64,000 nt of DNA, taken from the NCBI GenBank assembly GCA_002007365.1, contig LNZR01000077.1, positions 20,331 through 84,330 of the forward strand, given 5' to 3'. The notes under the pieces were generated by a model. The model made no database searches. It saw only the letters and a program-made list of their open reading frames with translations, and had not been told where the DNA came from. This DNA comes from Epulopiscium sp. Nele67-Bin005. Its GTDB lineage: Bacteria; Bacillota; Clostridia; Lachnospirales; Cellulosilyticaceae. The translations under genes were made by a program, and so were the position numbers. The stretch's first letter is position 1. Every line of letters starts with the position of its first letter. Below, in pieces: positions 46,195 through 58,278 of the stretch.

Positions 46195-48114
46195 ATGGAT
46201 TTTATGCAGATAATTTTAGAAGAAAAAAATGCTAATAAAATAGAAAGTTTTAATGGAACTTTTCTTGATTATTTAAATATTGTATATCAAAATAAAGATA
46301 TTGTACAACTTTCTCACGAAAAAATGTATAAGCTATTAATTCAAGGAGAAGTTGATATAATCAAAACTGAAGAAGATTTAAGGCTAAGACGTATTTATGG
46401 AAATTCTATCTTAAAGAAGTATCCTGTTTTTAAAGATAAATTTTTTGGGATAGATGATACTTTGATGAAATTAGTTCAGTATTTTTATACAGCATCTATG
46501 GGTGGGGAAGAAGCACGCCAAATTCTCTACCTTGTAGGTCCTGTAGGTGCTGGAAAATCGTCTTTGGTAGATGCTTTAAAAAGTTTATTAGAAACATCAG
46601 ATGATATTTATTCACTAGAAGGTTGTCCGATGCAAGAAGAGCCGTTGCACCTTATTCCTTATAAAAGTCGTAAGCGTTTTGAAGAAATTTTGGGTGTACA
46701 AATTGAAGGGGAGCTTTGTCCTGTTTGTAGTTATAGATTGCAAAATGAGTTTAATGGAGATTATGAAAAATTTCCAGTTGAGCAAATTAAATTTTCTATA
46801 AAAGACAGAAAAGGGATAGGGGTTGTGCCTCCAGTAGATGCTAATAATCAAGATACTTCGGTATTAACTGGTTCAATTAACATTTCAAAAATGGACTTAT
46901 ACTCTGAAGATGACCCAAGAGTATTTTCTTTAAATGGAGCATTTAATGTTGCAAATAGAGGTATGATTGAGTTTATAGAAGTATTTAAAAATGATGCAGA
47001 ATATTTATACACAATGATTACAGCTACTCAAGAAAAATTAATTCCATCTCCTGCAAAAGGCTCTATGATTTATTTTGATGGAATAATAATTGCGCATTCT
47101 AATGAAACTGAATGGACGAGGTTTAGAACTGACAGTACTAATGAAGCTATTTTGGATAGAATTGTAAGGATAGATGTGCCTTATTGTTTGGAGTTAGATG
47201 AGGAAGTTAAAATTTACAAAAAGCATCTTAGTAAATCAAAATTCAGGCAACATATTGCACCTCATACGTTGGAAATGGTAGGTATGTTTGCAATTTTAAC
47301 TAGGCTATCACCTTCTACAAAAGTAGAACCTTTGACTAAACTCAAAATTTATAATGGTGAGGAAATTATAAATTATCACACAGAAACTAAAATTAATATT
47401 TATGAGCTTAAAGAAGAAGCACCTAGAGAAGGTATGAGTGGAATTTCTACACGATTTATTATGAAAGTTATTGATAATACGTTGGTTGAGGCATCATGTG
47501 ATTGTATTTGGGCAGTACAAATTTTAGAAAAACTTATACAAGAATTAAAACAGTTGCCAATATCAAATGAAACTAAAAAATATTATTTGTCGATTATCCA
47601 AGATGTTGTAAAACAAGAATATAATAGGATATTAGAAGAGGAAATTACAAAATCTTTTGTGTATAGTTTTAGAGAACAAGCTGAAACTTTATTCAATAAT
47701 TATTTGGATCATGCAGAAGCTTACACCAACAAAACTACAATTAAAGACTTTAGTTCAAATTTAGAATTTAAAGCTGATGAAAAATTTTTACGTTCTATAG
47801 AAGAACAAATTGGGGTTAATGAAGGGGCTGCTCGTGGATTTAGGCAAGATGTAACATCTTATATGTTTGCATTAATTCGTTCTGGGCAATCTATTAGTTA
47901 TAAATGTTATGAGCCATTGAAGGAAGCTATTGAAAAACGGCTGACTTCTTCAATTAAAGAGCTAACAAGGATAATAACTTCTAGCCATATTAGAAATAAT
48001 GAACAAGGCGAAAAGTACAATGTTATGATTGAGCAAATGAAACAAAGTGGTTATTGTGAACATTGTTGTGATAAAGTTTTGAATTATGCAACGTATAACC
48101 TTTGGAAGGACTAG
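46195..48114 (+). CDS. prkA: PrkA family serine protein kinase
   Basis: LVGPVGAGKSSLVDALK, CPMQEEPLHLIP, NRGMIEFIEVFK. Confidence 0.95.
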   Translation: MDFMQIILEEKNANKIESFNGTFLDYLNIVYQNKDIVQLSHEKMYKLLIQGEVDIIKTEEDLRLRRIYGNSILKKYPVFKDKFFGIDDTLMKLVQYFYTASMGGEEARQILYLVGPVGAGKSSLVDALKSLLETSDDIYSLEGCPMQEEPLHLIPYKSRKRFEEILGVQIEGELCPVCSYRLQNEFNGDYEKFPVEQIKFSIKDRKGIGVVPPVDANNQDTSVLTGSINISKMDLYSEDDPRVFSLNGAFNVANRGMIEFIEVFKNDAEYLYTMITATQEKLIPSPAKGSMIYFDGIIIAHSNETEWTRFRTDSTNEAILDRIVRIDVPYCLELDEEVKIYKKHLSKSKFRQHIAPHTLEMVGMFAILTRLSPSTKVEPLTKLKIYNGEEIINYHTETKINIYELKEEAPREGMSGISTRFIMKVIDNTLVEASCDCIWAVQILEKLIQELKQLPISNETKKYYLSIIQDVVKQEYNRILEEEITKSFVYSFREQAETLFNNYLDHAEAYTNKTTIKDFSSNLEFKADEKFLRSIEEQIGVNEGAARGFRQDVTSYMFALIRSGQSISYKCYEPLKEAIEKRLTSSIKELTRIITSSHIRNNEQGEKYNVMIEQMKQSGYCEHCCDKVLNYATYNLWKD

Positions 48115-48117
48115 ACT

Positions 48118-49257
48118 ATGGCCACTTTCAAAAAATATGAAACAACAAACCATGATAGAGCGATTGAAGATAGACGACGACACAAAGAACTAATCGAGAA
48201 GAGTGTTAAAAATAATATTAGCCAAATAATTTCTGAAGAGAGTATCGTTGAGCAAGATGGCACACGTAAAATTAAAATTCCAATTCGTAGTTTGAATGAA
48301 TATTACTTTAAATATGGCTCTCAAAATGTAGGAATTTTATGTGGAGATGGCTCTCAAGTAAAAGGTAAACATCTTGAAAAGACTATAGTAAATAGTATCG
48401 AAAATGGAATTGGGACTAGTAAATCAGAAGATATTTTTGAGATAGATATAACTATTGATGATGCTATAGATATTTTGTTTGATAACTTTAATTTGCCGTA
48501 TTTTAATCATAAAAAATATGAAGAAATTAAGCTTGAGGAAGGTCTTAAACATCGGGGATTAAAACCAGCTGGAACAATGCGTCAGCTATCTAAAAAACAT
48601 ATGATGATTTCTAAAATTAAGCGCCAAAAATGTATGTCAAAAAGTGAGAGCCGAGTAACGTTTCATCGTAAAGATTTAGTTTATGTACGCACAAAGCCAA
48701 AGCAAAAACGACAATCTAACGCAGTTATTATTTGTATTATGGACAGTTCGGGGTCTATGGGATATACCAAAAAATATTTAGCTCGTAGTTTTTATTTCTT
48801 AATTTATCAATTTATAAAAATAAAATATGCTAACATAGAAATTATATTTATTTCGCATACTACTAGTGCTGAAGAGGTTAGTGAACAACAATTTTTTTAT
48901 AGAGGAGAAAATGGTGGCACTTGCATTAGCAGTGGTTATGAGAAGGCTCTTGAAATTATTAACGAAAAATATAAGCACTGGAATATATACACTTTTCATT
49001 GTAGTGATGGGGATAATTGGACTGAAGATAATGAAAAAGCAATTTTGTTAGCTAAGCAACTTTGCAACAAAAGCAATTTATTTAGTTATACAGAAATAAA
49101 AGGTATGAATAAATATCAAAATATCGCCAATCAATATATAAATCAACTTGAGAGTAATAATTTTGTTATTACAAAAATTGATAAAAAAGAAGATGTTTGG
49201 GAAGCATTTGCTAAAATACTTCAAGTTGAAAATTATATAGAAGGTGGTGGGAATTAA
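48118..49257 (+). CDS. yhbH: YhbH (DUF444) family sporulation protein
   Basis: VIICIMDSSGSMGYTKKYLARSFYFL; between prkA and spoVR. Confidence 0.93.
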   Translation: MATFKKYETTNHDRAIEDRRRHKELIEKSVKNNISQIISEESIVEQDGTRKIKIPIRSLNEYYFKYGSQNVGILCGDGSQVKGKHLEKTIVNSIENGIGTSKSEDIFEIDITIDDAIDILFDNFNLPYFNHKKYEEIKLEEGLKHRGLKPAGTMRQLSKKHMMISKIKRQKCMSKSESRVTFHRKDLVYVRTKPKQKRQSNAVIICIMDSSGSMGYTKKYLARSFYFLIYQFIKIKYANIEIIFISHTTSAEEVSEQQFFYRGENGGTCISSGYEKALEIINEKYKHWNIYTFHCSDGDNWTEDNEKAILLAKQLCNKSNLFSYTEIKGMNKYQNIANQYINQLESNNFVITKIDKKEDVWEAFAKILQVENYIEGGGN

Positions 49258-50499
49258 ATGTATACTGTTGATGAATTATTTACTTATAGCGAACAAATTG
49301 AAGAACTTACTCAAAATCTAGGGTTTAATTGTTATCCTCAACATTTTGAATTAGTTGATTACGAAGATATGATTTGTTATGCCACATATTCAGGAATGCC
49401 TTCTCATTATCCCCATTGGAGTTTGGGTAAAATTTACGAAAAGTTAAAAACTTTATATAATTATAATTTAAGTGGTATACCGTATGAGATGGTTATAAAT
49501 AGCAATCCTTGTATTGCGTATTTGATAAAAGATAATTCGCTAACTATGCAAATATTGACAATGGCTCATGTTTATGGACATAATGATTTTTTTGCAAATA
49601 ATCAATATTTCACTCAAAATACTGATGCAAGTTTGAGTATTTCTATGTTTAAAAATCATACTAAACGAATTCGGAGCTATATTTATGCACCGAGTATTGG
49701 ATATGAAAAAGTTGAAAAATTTTTAGATGCTGTTCATTCTATAAAATATCAATGTACATTAAATCAATCTGAAAAGGATTTGCCAATATTTTTGAGAAAT
49801 TGGGCAAATTTAGAGGAATGGCAAAAAGATATTTTAGATATAGTAATTAAGCAAAATGTTTATTTTTTACCTCAAATTGAAACCAAAATTATTAATGAGG
49901 GCTGGGCTAGCTTTTGGCATTACTACATTTTAAATAATTTAAATTTGACGATGGATAAAATGTTTGAGTTTTTTAAAATTCATAATAACATTGTACGACC
50001 AACAATTAATTTAAATCCATACTTTTTAGGATACAAAATTTGGAGAGATGTGTATATAAATTGTGATGGAAATATTGAGCAGATGTTGGCAATTAGAGAA
50101 ATACATAAAGATAGTTCTTTTATTAGAAATTATCTTAGTTATGAAGTTTGTGATAGTGCTAATTTATATTCTTACAAAAATCAAGACAGAAATTATGTTA
50201 TTGGAGATGTGTCTAATAAAAATAATTGGCAAATAATTAGAGAACAATTAGCAAATAATGTTGGAATTAATGCTGTTCCTCATATTGAAGTTATAGACTT
50301 TACTAAAGATACTTTAAATTTATATCATGCTTGGGATAATAAAGAACTAGATTTATTGTACACTACTGAAACTTTGAAGCACATTCAAACTATTTGGGGT
50401 GGAAAAATTACATTAAAAACTCAGTTTTCTGGTATAAAAAGAAAAATTGTTTGCGATAGCGATAAAAAAGTATTTATTCAGAACGAGGAGTACTCATAA
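49258..50499 (+). CDS. spoVR: SpoVR family protein
   Basis: PYEMVINSNPCIAYLIKDNS, NEGWASFWHYYILNNL, NPYFLGYKIWRD. Confidence 0.95.
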   Translation: MYTVDELFTYSEQIEELTQNLGFNCYPQHFELVDYEDMICYATYSGMPSHYPHWSLGKIYEKLKTLYNYNLSGIPYEMVINSNPCIAYLIKDNSLTMQILTMAHVYGHNDFFANNQYFTQNTDASLSISMFKNHTKRIRSYIYAPSIGYEKVEKFLDAVHSIKYQCTLNQSEKDLPIFLRNWANLEEWQKDILDIVIKQNVYFLPQIETKIINEGWASFWHYYILNNLNLTMDKMFEFFKIHNNIVRPTINLNPYFLGYKIWRDVYINCDGNIEQMLAIREIHKDSSFIRNYLSYEVCDSANLYSYKNQDRNYVIGDVSNKNNWQIIREQLANNVGINAVPHIEVIDFTKDTLNLYHAWDNKELDLLYTTETLKHIQTIWGGKITLKTQFSGIKRKIVCDSDKKVFIQNEEYS

Positions 50500-52016: not shown

Positions 52017-52115
52017 ATGGCTTTAACTGCAATGATGACGCAATATTTAGAAATAAAAGAACGTTATAAAAATGAAATTGTAATGTTTAGACTAGGTGAT
52101 TTTTACGAAATGTTT
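52017..52115 (+). CDS. mutS: mutS exon 1 (codons 1-33, [33 protein letters not shown])
   Basis: Matches the MutS N-terminus; reading frame resumes exactly at 53845 (FDDALVVTKELEIALTGREC). Confidence 0.92.
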
Positions 52116-53844
52116 GTGCGTCTGTAAAGGTATAATAATAAATGGGTGGATTGCAACACCCCAAAGGTCAACACAACTACCTTTGTTACTAATGACCTTA
52201 TCCCAAAGCGAAAGTGGAGGGGGAGTGTAGCATGGTCATAAAGCTATAAGTTGACTAGTGGCAAAGTTAATACTAAATAGCAAAGTAATATTTATAAATA
52301 AGGATAAATGCTAAACTGCGTGAAGGATAAACTATGGCGAGTTATCGTACTCCTTGCCGAAAGCCATTGATACGGCAAGTGTTTTTGGTTAATAGTATAA
52401 AAACATTATTATTAACTTGTGTTCAAAAACAGCTTTGTGTATAAGTTGAAAGTCCTATCCGAAATTATAAGCAATGTTAATATTATACTAAACAGAGATT
52501 GCCTAAGTCACTGTTGTGATATGGTAACGGAATTCTCGTAGTAGTCTGAGTTTGGGAAAGCCAAATACATGGCGAAGGGGAATAGTTTATCAGTCAAATA
52601 CGAAATAGGAAGGTGCGTGAGGCACTATGAGAAGTCCCAAATTAGTATTGGACAGTTTAACCAAGATGTCATTAAAACCAAATTATCAATTTGAAAGATT
52701 ATATCGCAATTTTTATAATGAACAATTTTATAATAATTGCGATGTTGAAAATTTAATTAATTTAATTAAAACAGAAAAGTACCAGCCTCAAAAACTTGTT
52801 TCTAATTCCAAAAACATACAGGAGCAAGATAATTTAGTAGTAAATATTTTGGTGCAAATTTTGGAGGCAATTTATAAAAATAAATTTATAAATCAGAACT
52901 CCAATCCTCATATAGCTTTATTAAAGTGTGAAGGTGTTCAAAATATAAATTATTTTATTAATGCTGAAGTGTTAAATTTTAACGTTGATACACTAATGAA
53001 AATTTTAGGGTACACTATTAACGATAAAAAATTTTTAAATTTAATCAGAAAATTTTTGAAAGCAGGATATTTAGATTGTGTTGCATATGACAAAACTTAT
53101 TCTGGAACTCCTATTCGAGGCAAATTGGGAAATTTATTAACTGAGATATATCTATTAGAGTATGATAAGTTTATTATGAGCAACAAAAATATATTTTATG
53201 TAAGATATAAAAATAAATTGTTAATAGGTTGTCCTCATAATAAAATTGAAATTCCTTTTATAAAGGAAGAAACTCATAATTTTTACAAGGAAATTCAAAT
53301 AATTTCTTCAACTTACAAAGAAACTTGGTTTTTGAATTATAAAATAAAAGTTATAGATGGGAAAACTAAATTGTTTATTCCACGCAAGATATGGGTAGAT
53401 TTTTTGAAAAAATATGGTGCATTGAATATAGAAAATACTAAGTGGATTTCATATCATCGACCTTATTTAAAGGACGCTTCTGATTTGGAGATTTTCACTC
53501 AATATAATAAGGAAATTACTAAGTTATATACTTATTATAGGTTGGCATATAACGTTTCTGTTTTAAATAAATTTAATTATATTATGAAATATAGTTGTGC
53601 AAAAACTTTGGCTAACAAATATAAATCTTCTGTTAGAAAAATATTAACTAAATATAGCGTGGAAGGAAATTTTGCGCTTATAACTGAAGATGGAGTTTAT
53701 TATTTTTATAACCAAGGATTTAAAACTAACTTAAAAATTGACTATAAGTATAATGATAGATTGTGTTAAAGATAAATGGTGAGCCGTATACGCTGAGAGG
53801 TGTACGTACGGTTCTGGAGGAGAGTGCAAAAGTGCTTATCCTAC
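52116..53844 (+). mobile_element. Group II intron inserted in mutS, 1729 nt
   Basis: 5' GTGCG, 3' ..TATCCTAC, domain V GAGCCGTATACGCTGAGAGGTGTACGTACGGTTC at 53781-53814, EBS1 AAACATT (52401-52407) pairs IBS1 AATGTTT (52109-52115), EBS2 TCGTA (52345-52349) pairs IBS2 TACGA (52104-52108). Confidence 0.95.
52627..53769 (+). CDS. Group II intron maturase with degenerate reverse transcriptase domain
   Basis: N-term MRSPKLVLDSLTKMSLKPNYQFERLYRNFYN; GTPIRGKLGNLLTEIYLLEYDK; YKNK where YADD expected; domain X LKDASDLEIFTQYNKEITKLYTYYRLAYNV...SCAKTLANKYKSSVRKILTKY. Confidence 0.92.
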   Translation: MRSPKLVLDSLTKMSLKPNYQFERLYRNFYNEQFYNNCDVENLINLIKTEKYQPQKLVSNSKNIQEQDNLVVNILVQILEAIYKNKFINQNSNPHIALLKCEGVQNINYFINAEVLNFNVDTLMKILGYTINDKKFLNLIRKFLKAGYLDCVAYDKTYSGTPIRGKLGNLLTEIYLLEYDKFIMSNKNIFYVRYKNKLLIGCPHNKIEIPFIKEETHNFYKEIQIISSTYKETWFLNYKIKVIDGKTKLFIPRKIWVDFLKKYGALNIENTKWISYHRPYLKDASDLEIFTQYNKEITKLYTYYRLAYNVSVLNKFNYIMKYSCAKTLANKYKSSVRKILTKYSVEGNFALITEDGVYYFYNQGFKTNLKIDYKYNDRLC

Positions 53845-56313
53845 TTTGATGATGCCCTAGTTGTGACAAAAGAATTAGAAATAGCCTTGACAGGTAGAGA
53901 ATGTGGACTTCCTGAGAAAGCCCCAATGTGTGGAGTGCCACACCATTCGGCAGAAAATTATATTGCAAGGTTAATTGAGAAAGGTTACAAAGTAGCAATT
54001 TGTGAGCAGATAGAAGAAGCTAGTAAGGCTAAAGGGCTTGTAAAACGTGATGTTGTAAGGGTTATAACTCCAGGAACAACTTTGGACAGCAATACATTAC
54101 AAGCAGAAAAAAATAATTATATTGCAGTAGTAGTATATGTTCAGGAGCAATACGGATTTAGTTTTTGTGATGTGAGTACAGGTGAATGGAGTGCTACAAG
54201 ATTTGAAAAAAAGGCAAGTTTCAAAAAGGCTATAGATGAAATTACAAAATTTATGCCTGTAGAATGCTTGATTAGTGACAACTTAAAGTCAAGTGAGATT
54301 GCTAAATTTTTAAAAACGCAATGTCAATGTCTAGTAGAAATAATTCCAAATAATATTTTAGACAGTAGTTTTAGTGAGTCATTACTCAAAAATCATTTTA
54401 ATTTGTTGGGCATTGATGGAATTGGGTTGCAAGTTGGAAAAAGTGATACTCTTGCAGTTTCAACTCTTCTAAATTATTTAAAGGAAACTCAAAAAAATAC
54501 CTTATCTCATCTACAAAAAATTGAAATTTACAACACTGAAGCATATATGGTTCTTGATAATGCAACTCGAAGAAATTTGGAAATTTGTGAAACTTTGCGA
54601 GAAAAAAAGCGTAAAGGCTCATTGTTGTGGATTTTAGATGAAACAAAAACAGCTATGGGGGCTAGATATTTAAAAAAATGTATCGACCAGCCATTAGTAA
54701 ATTTAGATGAAATTAATGAAAGATTAGATGCTATTGAAGAATTAGTTAGAAATATATTTTTGCAGGATGATTTAAAAGAGGCTCTCAAAAAGATTTATGA
54801 TATTGAGCGTTTAGTAAGTAAAATTGCCCATGGCTCTTGTAATGCCAAGGAATTGACGACTTTAAAATTTTCAATTGCAAAGCTACCTGATATTTATGGG
54901 ATATTAAAAAATTTAAATGCTAATATATTTAAATTAATGTATAGTAATTGGGATACAATGGAAGATGTCTATACTTTGATTGATGATGCAATTTTGGAGG
55001 ATACTCCACTTTCTGTACGAGAGGGAGGCCTAATTAAAATTGGTTATAATGAGGAAATTGATCGTTTAAAGCAAATTAAAGAAAAAGGAGCTTCTTGGCT
55101 ACGTGATATTGAGGCAAAAGAGCGTCAAAAAACTGGTATCAAAAATCTTAAAATTAAGTACAATAAAGTTTTTGGATATTTTTTGGAAGTTACACACACT
55201 AATGCTCACCTTGTTCCTGAATATTTTATAAGAAAGCAAACTTTAGCTTCTTGTGAAAGATATATTACTGAAGAATTAAAAACTATAGAAGAAGATATTT
55301 TAGGTGCTGATGAGAAACTAGTTCAGCTGGAATATCAAATTTTCTCCCAAATTAGGGAACATATTAAAGAACATTCAGAGCGATTATTAAATATTTCTCA
55401 TAATATTGCAAAATTGGATATGTTATGTTCACTATCAAGTGTCGCAATTAAAAATCACTATGTCCGTCCAAAAGTTCATGATGGAGATACTATAGATATT
55501 AAAGAAGGCCGTCACCCAGTTATTGAAAATATGATGAATTCACACAATTTTATTGCAAATGACACATATTTAAATGAAACAACTGACCAACTTCTTCTTA
55601 TTACAGGGCCCAACATGGCAGGAAAATCAACGGTTATGCGTCAAGTTGCACTGATAGTTTTGATGGCTCAAATTGGTTCTTTTGTACCAGCTAATTATGC
55701 AAATATTGGAATTGTTGATAGAATTTTTACACGAGTTGGAGCTTCTGATGATTTAGCTTCTGGACAAAGTACTTTTATGGTTGAGATGATGGAGGTTGCT
55801 AATATTTTGCATCATGCTACTTCAAAAAGTTTGCTTATTTTAGATGAAATTGGACGTGGGACGAGTACTATAGATGGATTAAGTATAGCTTGGTCTATAA
55901 TTGAGCATTTGGTTAATAATATTAAAGCGAAAACTATGTTTGCAACCCACTATCATGAATTAACTATGTTATCAGAACAATTTTTATCAATTAAAAATTA
56001 TTGTGTGTCAGTTAAAGAAGTGGGTGAAGATATAATTTTCCTTCATAAAATTGTGAGTGGAAACGGAGATAAAAGTTATGGTATACAGGTAGCTAAACTT
56101 GCAGGAGTGCCTATAACAATTTTGCACCGAGCTAAAGAAATTATGGTGGAAGTTGCTGAAAAAACGCCTCAAACTACTTTTGTAGAGCCAAAACAAATTG
56201 TGGAAGAAATTCACCCAGCCATTGAAAAACTTGAAGATTTAAATGTTATGGAGCTAACTCCGATGCAAGCTTTGGAGGTGCTTGATAAACTACAAAAATT
56301 GGTGAGAGGTTAA
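53845..56313 (+). CDS. mutS: mutS exon 2 (DNA mismatch repair protein MutS, spliced product ~855 aa)
   Basis: MCGVPHHSAENYIARLI, LLITGPNMAGKSTVMRQVALIVLMAQIGSFVPA, LLILDEIGRGTSTIDGLSIAW; the track's 53800 start lies inside the intron. Confidence 0.96.
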   Translation, partial: FDDALVVTKELEIALTGRECGLPEKAPMCGVPHHSAENYIARLIEKGYKVAICEQIEEASKAKGLVKRDVVRVITPGTTLDSNTLQAEKNNYIAVVVYVQEQYGFSFCDVSTGEWSATRFEKKASFKKAIDEITKFMPVECLISDNLKSSEIAKFLKTQCQCLVEIIPNNILDSSFSESLLKNHFNLLGIDGIGLQVGKSDTLAVSTLLNYLKETQKNTLSHLQKIEIYNTEAYMVLDNATRRNLEICETLREKKRKGSLLWILDETKTAMGARYLKKCIDQPLVNLDEINERLDAIEELVRNIFLQDDLKEALKKIYDIERLVSKIAHGSCNAKELTTLKFSIAKLPDIYGILKNLNANIFKLMYSNWDTMEDVYTLIDDAILEDTPLSVREGGLIKIGYNEEIDRLKQIKEKGASWLRDIEAKERQKTGIKNLKIKYNKVFGYFLEVTHTNAHLVPEYFIRKQTLASCERYITEELKTIEEDILGADEKLVQLEYQIFSQIREHIKEHSERLLNISHNIAKLDMLCSLSSVAIKNHYVRPKVHDGDTIDIKEGRHPVIENMMNSHNFIANDTYLNETTDQLLLITGPNMAGKSTVMRQVALIVLMAQIGSFVPANYANIGIVDRIFTRVGASDDLASGQSTFMVEMMEVANILHHATSKSLLILDEIGRGTSTIDGLSIAWSIIEHLVNNIKAKTMFATHYHELTMLSEQFLSIKNYCVSVKEVGEDIIFLHKIVSGNGDKSYGIQVAKLAGVPITILHRAKEIMVEVAEKTPQTTFVEPKQIVEEIHPAIEKLEDLNVMELTPMQALEVLDKLQKLVRG

Positions 56314-56316
56314 ACT

Positions 56317-58278
56317 ATGTCGGAAATTAAAATACTAGATGATTATACAATTAACAAAATAGCTGCAGGGGAAGTGGTCGAAAGACCAGCCTCTGTTGTT
56401 AAAGAACTTGTGGAAAATAGCATTGATGCAGGGGCTAGTACAATAGCTATTGATATAAAAAATGGAGGAGTTGACCTAATTCGTATTACAGATAACGGAA
56501 AAGGTATTCCAAAAAATCAGATGGAAATAGCGTTTGAGAGGCATGCCACAAGTAAAATTCAAAAAATTGAGGATTTACAACAAACGATTTCGCTAGGATT
56601 TAGAGGTGAGGCGTTATCCAGCATTTCTTCAGTTTCTCAAGTTGAATTAATTAGCAAACAGGCAAACGCCATTACTGGAAAAAGGGTAGTTTTGGAGGGT
56701 GGCAAAATTAAAACTAGTGAAGAAATCGCTTGTCCAGAAGGAACTACATTTATAATGAGGAATTTATTTTTTAATGTTCCTGCCAGAAAGTCGTTTCTAA
56801 AAACTACAACTACTGAAAAAAATCGAATTTCAGATTATTTATATCAATTAGCTTTGGCAAACCCTCAAATTTCTTTTAAATATTTTTATGATGGCAAATT
56901 AATTTTTCAAACTCAAGGAAATTCGCCTCTTAAAAATGTGCTATTTGAACTATACGGAAAAGATATCGCAAAGCAAACTATAGAGGTACAATTTGAACAA
57001 GAAAATATGAAAGTTGTAGGTCTAATTGGAAAGCCAATTATTTCTCGTGCTAATAGAACTCTTCAACATATATTTATAAATGGACGATGTATAAAAAGTA
57101 GCATAATCCAAAAAGCTATCGAAGAAGCGTTCAAAACTTATATTATGGTTGGAAAATATCCAGTTGCTATTTTGCATATTCAAATGGATATTAAAGATGT
57201 TGATGTAAATGTTCACCCAGCTAAATTAGAAGTACGGTTTAAAGATGAAGATAAAATTTATAGTCTAGTATATATTGCAGTACATGAGGCTTTAGTTTCA
57301 GAAAATATGGTTCGTTCAATAAATGATAATAAAAAGATAAAGCCACAACCCCCTAAAATTGAAAAAAATGAAGTGGATCAAATAAAAGTTCAATCTTTTT
57401 TTGCGCCAAAGGCTACCAATAATATGTTAAAATATGATACACTATTAGAGAAGCGAACATCTTCTACACAAAAACCTAAAATTTTTGATGAAGTAAGTTA
57501 TGAAGTTCCATCAAATAATGAACCAATGGTTGCTGAGGCAGAAGTAACATTGGCTGAATTCGTTAATGAAGAAGTATTTGTTGAGGCAGATAAATTTTTG
57601 GATATTCATACACAAAATCAGATGGAAGATGTGCAGCTAAAAAATGATATTGTGGAGATTAGTAACAACGTTAAACATACTATGCAACAGGAAATCTCTA
57701 AACCTAAATATGGGCTAGACTACCGTATTATTGGGCAAATTTTCAAAACGTATTGGTTAATTGAACATCATAATAAAGTATATATTATGGATCAACATGC
57801 TGGTCATGAAAGAGTAATGTATGAAATATTTATGCAAAAATTTAATAGTGGTAATGTTCCCACTCAACAATTATTAGTGGCCCAAACTTTGCATCTTACT
57901 ACAAAAGAAATGGATATGTTGCAACAAAATGAAGAGTTACTACAAAAGGTTGGATTTATGTTTGAATGCTTTGGCGAAACTGATATTTTAGTTCGTGAAG
58001 TACCGTTTATTTTTAATCGACCGATTACAATTAGTGAATTTAAACAACTAATAGAAAGTTTTGATCCAAAAAAGGTAAAAAGTATGCATGAAGAACATAT
58101 TATTCAACTGGCGTGCAAACATTCAGTAAGAGGGAATGATAATATGAGTGAGCTTGAGTGCCGAAATCTTGTTGAAACTTTATTAACTTTGGAGAACCCA
58201 TACACTTGCCCTCACGGAAGACCCACTCTTATTAGTTTAGAGCGTAAAGATATTGAGAAACTCTTTAATAGAATTTGA
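56317..58278 (+). CDS. mutL: DNA mismatch repair protein MutL
   Basis: NKIAAGEVVERPASVVKELVENSIDAG, GFRGEALSSISSV, CPHGRPTLI. Confidence 0.97.
   Translation: MSEIKILDDYTINKIAAGEVVERPASVVKELVENSIDAGASTIAIDIKNGGVDLIRITDNGKGIPKNQMEIAFERHATSKIQKIEDLQQTISLGFRGEALSSISSVSQVELISKQANAITGKRVVLEGGKIKTSEEIACPEGTTFIMRNLFFNVPARKSFLKTTTTEKNRISDYLYQLALANPQISFKYFYDGKLIFQTQGNSPLKNVLFELYGKDIAKQTIEVQFEQENMKVVGLIGKPIISRANRTLQHIFINGRCIKSSIIQKAIEEAFKTYIMVGKYPVAILHIQMDIKDVDVNVHPAKLEVRFKDEDKIYSLVYIAVHEALVSENMVRSINDNKKIKPQPPKIEKNEVDQIKVQSFFAPKATNNMLKYDTLLEKRTSSTQKPKIFDEVSYEVPSNNEPMVAEAEVTLAEFVNEEVFVEADKFLDIHTQNQMEDVQLKNDIVEISNNVKHTMQQEISKPKYGLDYRIIGQIFKTYWLIEHHNKVYIMDQHAGHERVMYEIFMQKFNSGNVPTQQLLVAQTLHLTTKEMDMLQQNEELLQKVGFMFECFGETDILVREVPFIFNRPITISEFKQLIESFDPKKVKSMHEEHIIQLACKHSVRGNDNMSELECRNLVETLLTLENPYTCPHGRPTLISLERKDIEKLFNRI

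Follow-up and report, generated by a model that had tools for sequence, protein, structure and literature searches.

A group II intron in mutS of Epulopiscium sp. Nele67-Bin005 encodes a probable MatK-like maturase with a degenerate reverse transcriptase

The stretch of DNA analysed here (64,000 nucleotides, hereafter the window) carries a mutS gene of Epulopiscium sp. Nele67-Bin005 that is split by a group II intron directly 3' of the codons for GDFYEMF. The 5' exon (52017..52115, + strand) ends just past the Phe-X-Glu motif and is followed by an intron of 1,729 nt (52116..53844, +) and by a 3' exon (FDDALVVTKELEI..., 53845..56313, +) of 822 open codons, which scores against the profile as a complete MutS. 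Read without splicing, the frame opens at the ATG and meets a stop three codons into the intron, for a total of 36 amino acids. Joining the exons gives a full-length MutS of 855 residues that matches TIGR01070 end to end with 1002 bits (cut-off 642), compared with 948 bits for the 3' exon alone. The downstream neighbour is an intact mutL (56317..58278, +). A search for MutS across the family found the gene uninterrupted in all 20 other genomes with a match, and this is the one mutS-intron sequence known from the Epulopiscium family; among 399 genomes of the phylum, a sample without the rest of the family, the pattern of the mutS-site intron matched this genome only. Elsewhere in the window, three adjacent open reading frames (46195-50499) resemble, by eye, PrkA-type kinase, YeaH-like and SpoVR-like proteins.

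Close inspection of the intron reveals the features that define group II elements: a 5' end of the GUGYG type (GTGCG), a 3' end of the AY type (AC, in ...CTTATCCTAC), a domain V, a bulged branch-point adenosine in domain VI and pairings between exon- and intron-binding sites. IBS1 (ATGTTT, 52110..52115, +), which comprises the last six bases of the 5' exon, is complemented by EBS1 (AAACAT, 52401..52406, +) in six Watson-Crick pairs out of six, and IBS2 (TACGA, 52104..52108, +), in the same exon, by EBS2 (TCGTA, 52345..52349, +) in five out of five; the A immediately 5' of EBS1 is additionally consistent with a delta pairing to the T that opens the 3' exon. Across 17 aligned introns in different host genes, the EBS2/IBS2 pairing is retained in most, with exon-specific changes. 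Domain V (53781..53814, +) forms a canonical hairpin, identified by folding and by an RF00029 match of 59 bits in the right place (53779-53844), and had been called intact from the letters alone. In domain VI (53815..53844, +) the fold leaves the A at 53838 unpaired, at a distance of 7 nt from the 3' splice site, which is the position expected of a branch point (z of -3.2 for the combined domain V/VI fold). The assignment of domains I to III rests on EBS1, EBS2 and sequence similarity; the minimum-energy fold of that whole region (z of -1.95) was set aside as evidence.

The intron contains an open, ATG-initiated frame for a 380-residue protein, P0001 (52627..53769, +), whose motifs were called from an alignment with LtrA (5g2x) and 34 relatives. 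Glu114 (52966..52968, +) replaces the first catalytic Asp, GTPIRG (53104..53121, +) replaces GTPQGG, residues K195-N196-K197 (53209..53217, +) stand in place of the A-D-D of YADD, which consequently reads YKNK, and HGFRP is deleted. The first-pass annotation had read the last three of these changes in the same way; its further statement, that the region of the early catalytic Asp is absent, holds for the residue and not for the block, which is still recognisable as FINAEVLNF with the following FFDNIDHH shortened. All three catalytic Asp positions are thus lost, and an intact Asp elsewhere, the observation named beforehand as decisive against an inactive enzyme, occurs at none of the active-site columns of this alignment. 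Pfam returns Intron_maturas2 (domain X, 2.5e-11) for P0001, no RVT_1, which is found in the four Epulopiscium relatives, and no HNH endonuclease domain, the protein terminating after domain X; the TIGR04416 score is 46.7 against a cut-off of 300. Of the attributes of an active group II reverse transcriptase (RT), P0001 therefore has neither the Asp of the first block nor YADD nor RVT_1.

The damage is unevenly distributed. Positions were counted as near-invariant when at least 95% of 28 relatives that lie outside the Epulopiscium clade agree on them. In the RT part 54 of 105 such positions (51%) are lost from P0001, as opposed to 3 of 26 in domain X (12%; Fisher p 0.0003), in agreement with the earlier proposal that domain X is retained. 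The predicted structure has a pLDDT of 86 overall and mostly about 90-97 in domain X, and confidence is high for most of the segment formed by the thumb, domain X and the C-terminal tail (53341..53766, +). The best structural match of the model is LtrA in complex with its intron (8h2h, TMq 0.75), and LtrA is also the best sequence match in the PDB (7e-33); in the protein tree P0001 groups with LtrA-like intron-encoded proteins (IEPs), which a split of 100/100 separates from the remaining classes in the tree, and the class label ML/LtrA rests on this similarity to LtrA. Judged by its sequence, P0001 is an ML/LtrA-class protein with an inactivated RT and a preserved domain X, and, with its RT motifs lost and domain X conserved, it has the traits of a MatK-like degenerate maturase, a statement about kind and not about orthology.

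To characterize the selection acting on this frame, we used a codon model in which the P0001 branch had its own free omega, fitted separately to the RT part and to domain X. An omega of 1 was rejected for both (2dlnL of 26.3 for the RT part and 16.2 for domain X), and an omega above that of the relatives was supported for the RT part (10.9) and unsupported for domain X (2.5), so that the comparison suggested in the first-pass annotation shows purifying selection in both parts and supports a raised omega in the RT only. Only these likelihood contrasts were used, since synonymous sites are saturated and the omega values themselves unreliable, and the branch also spans time before the RT was lost. 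When the homologue encoded in the pgi intron was mutated neutrally in silico to 10-20% divergence, the mean number of stops was 10-18 and all of the 6,000 simulated copies lost their open frame (with about 10 stops already at 10%). The P0001 frame is open despite 13-17 apparent indels relative to each relative, and the frames of its nearest homologues are likewise open and their X domains conserved. The frame of P0001 is under purifying selection and its openness is not a product of chance. The mutS-intron branch is short in the RNA tree (0.18) and long in the protein tree (1.71), and, with the reservation that the two scales differ, this fits the picture of a constrained ribozyme and a relaxed RT.

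Overall, we consider it very likely that the mutS intron is a trapped, splicing-only element served by a MatK-like maturase. An ML-class, LtrA-like intron would have inserted into mutS and become such an element as P0001 lost DNA copying and endonuclease functions and retained, at its N-terminus, the RT-0/finger helices, together with a remnant of the palm and an intact thumb and domain X. Translated from the unspliced mutS transcript, P0001 would bind the intron RNA and aid the ribozyme in excising itself, yielding full-length MutS, and the intron would persist because its precise removal is rare and mutS requires splicing. Splicing in vivo, its dependence on P0001, the immobility of the intron and the reason for its retention are all points that we infer from sequence, and a ribozyme of such good anatomy might splice without the protein. 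The loss of the catalytic Asp residues, the kept domain X, the purifying selection, the intact mutS exons and the lack of an intact copy (see below) support the original suggestion that retromobility has probably been lost and splicing selected.

Among the rival explanations the one that survives best, unlikely as it is, is simple decay: P0001 would be a pseudogene on its way out, and the ribozyme would splice by itself or with the aid of host factors. Decay would suit the disappearance of about half of the conserved RT positions, the great length of the protein branch and the faster evolution of the RT part compared with the relatives; against it, 380 codons of 24% GC DNA contain no stop where neutral drift gives at least 10, an omega of 1 is rejected in the RT part as well as in domain X, and the latter is nearly untouched.

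The rest of the genome bears on a second alternative. The assembly (2.09 Mb in 90 contigs, 89% complete) yielded no other group II IEP, intact or otherwise, and hence none of the intact parental copies for which the first-pass annotation had proposed to search. It contains one further group II intron, 928 nt long and ORF-less, at the 3' end of nifU and directly ahead of mnmA, which is split by the assembly (contig 60, 1-928, - strand; contig 61, 1-137, + strand) and for which no cognate IEP was found in the genome. An orphan of this sort invites the idea that P0001 acts in trans on other introns, as MatK serves several, and that its main client is perhaps not mutS. However, the nifU/mnmA intron belongs to another class than the mutS intron, one whose members in the family encode IEPs of 570-645 residues, and maturases that cross classes are uncommon. 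Service of the nifU intron by P0001 was accordingly judged unlikely because of this difference in class, and trans action as a whole seems improbable to us.

The mutS intron with its degenerate maturase is not an isolated case in the family, where relatives in a comparable state occupy other housekeeping genes. Across 24 same-family genomes we found five introns of the P0001 clade: the one in mutS, those in pgi and fabK of Epulopiscium sp. SCG-D08WGA-EpuloA1, and two at a common insertion site in thyA of Epulopiscium sp. Nuni2H_MBin001 and Nuni2H_MBin003 (the last three host genes were named by reading their exons). Their IEPs group as a single clade in the protein tree (100/100), none has the endonuclease, and in all five, spread over four different host genes, the second Asp of YADD is missing, with T, N, K, S or K in its place; among the resulting motifs are YADT, in fabK, and YADN, in thyA. 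Damage to the RT is graded, from 14% in fabK and 17% in thyA of Nuni2H_MBin003 through 27% in pgi and 28% in thyA of Nuni2H_MBin001 to 51% in mutS. In each of the five the codon of the second Asp encodes Asn or lies one step from it, which fits a single ancestral D-to-N change in YADD that is not proven; we dropped the D-to-N change shared by the mutS and pgi motifs as proof of movement after inactivation, as the protein and RNA trees disagree on the placement of P0001. All five EBS1 sequences, that of the mutS intron and those of its four sisters, match the local exon at six of six positions. Between the two orthologous thyA introns, two synonymous changes in IBS1 (ATTGCA to ATCGCT) are each compensated in EBS1 (TGCAAT to AGCGAT), a pattern that points to long-term selection for splicing despite the mutated YADD. 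Membership of this group of five, like the identity of the host gene and the missing endonuclease, goes beyond what the first-pass annotation had recorded.

Five related introns with a mutated YADD in four genes are hard to explain if their ancestor was dead, and could mean that the mutS intron is still mobile with an RT supplied in trans. We hold this to be very unlikely: the genome itself and the 23 other family genomes contain no intact member of the clade, independent losses after insertion are just as possible, and P0001 occupies different positions in the protein and RNA trees. Somewhat less doubtful, and still a conjecture, is a historical version in which one intron lineage in relatives of the giant bacterium Epulopiscium lost RT catalysis before or during its spread to mutS, pgi, thyA and fabK, owed that spread to a trans-acting RT or to reverse splicing at the RNA level, and is now an organelle-like, vertically inherited set, conversion to splicing only being a recurrent fate in Bacillota. 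Least probable of all is that mutS is inactivated, the intron having ceased to splice and the strain being deficient in mismatch repair, for although the unspliced reading ends after 36 residues and many bacteria tolerate the loss of MutS, the 3' exon has an open frame of 822 codons and the score of a complete MutS, mutL is intact and the splice-site pairings are perfect.

A degenerate maturase of this kind has precedents. The first-pass annotation had drawn a bacterial parallel to MatK, which is apt, although a bacterial precedent exists in O.i.I2 of Oceanobacillus iheyensis, an intron in radC that was the sole known bacterial degenerate maturase in a 2015 review (PMC4424553). Like P0001, O.i.I2 is bacterial, of the ML class, devoid of YADD and other RT motifs, open in frame and located in a DNA repair gene (PMC4424553); it differs in host gene and lineage, the comparison being one by description, and P0001 comes with a clade of five and further cases. 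MatK, encoded in the trnK intron of plant chloroplasts, shares with P0001 a kept domain X, decayed RT motifs and residence in a needed gene (PMC4424553). MatK differs in being an organellar protein that binds several introns, whereas P0001 has its own intron as the only likely client and has kept the RT-0 block at its N-terminus and a larger share of the RT scaffold. LtrA and Ll.LtrB, the closest solved structure by sequence and fold, have the same intron design; there, however, the intron is mobile and LtrA has both RT and endonuclease domains. In the open-access literature (subscription papers lay mostly outside our scope) we found no report of group II introns in Epulopiscium or of the mutS case. 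The kind is thus already known, from one recorded bacterial example, and the present analysis adds a new member, its clade and signs that such introns recur. As P0001 has no RVT_1 match, surveys that recognise IEP-containing introns by the RT domain (as in PMC8919778) could miss it, and such cases may be undercounted.

The same codons of mutS are occupied outside the family as well. Shimazuella introns lie at the identical insertion point and share the EBS1 AAACAT; unlike P0001, their IEP has 644 residues and an HNH endonuclease, with a YADD that is intact in S. kribbensis and reads YAND in S. alba. The intron at this site in Thermoflavimicrobium daqui resembles that of P0001 in lacking an endonuclease and in combining a degenerating RT with a kept domain X, and differs in that its 463-residue IEP still has a YADD, with the first Asp changed to Gly. 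The Shimazuella and T. daqui introns form a clade of their own (98/90 in the protein tree, 98/98 in the RNA tree), which places the latter in the Thermoactinomycetaceae clade and implies that degeneration at the mutS site took place at least twice, independently; with three introns from that separate clade at exactly this site, one of them degenerate and two full-length, these codons have served repeatedly as a homing site. Viral contigs offered only relatives with an intact YADD and no close source.

Strongly degenerate maturases also occur in introns in the P-loop region of soj (parA) in Thermoactinomycetaceae: the T. daqui intron at NQKGGVG encodes a degenerate protein of 420 residues with YHDE, and that of Seinonella peptonophila a maturase with YNDH, to which, and not to P0001, belongs a weak MatK_N match below cut-off. 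Selfish group II introns are presumed to have begun their passage to organellar and spliceosomal introns by losing retromobility while continuing to splice. The graded series that runs from the full-length Shimazuella IEP through mild damage in fabK and thyA to strong damage in pgi, mutS and soj, with members in Epulopiscium and also in named strains of Thermoflavimicrobium, Seinonella and Shimazuella, would open this first step to experiment. In B. badius radC, GE stands where GD is expected.
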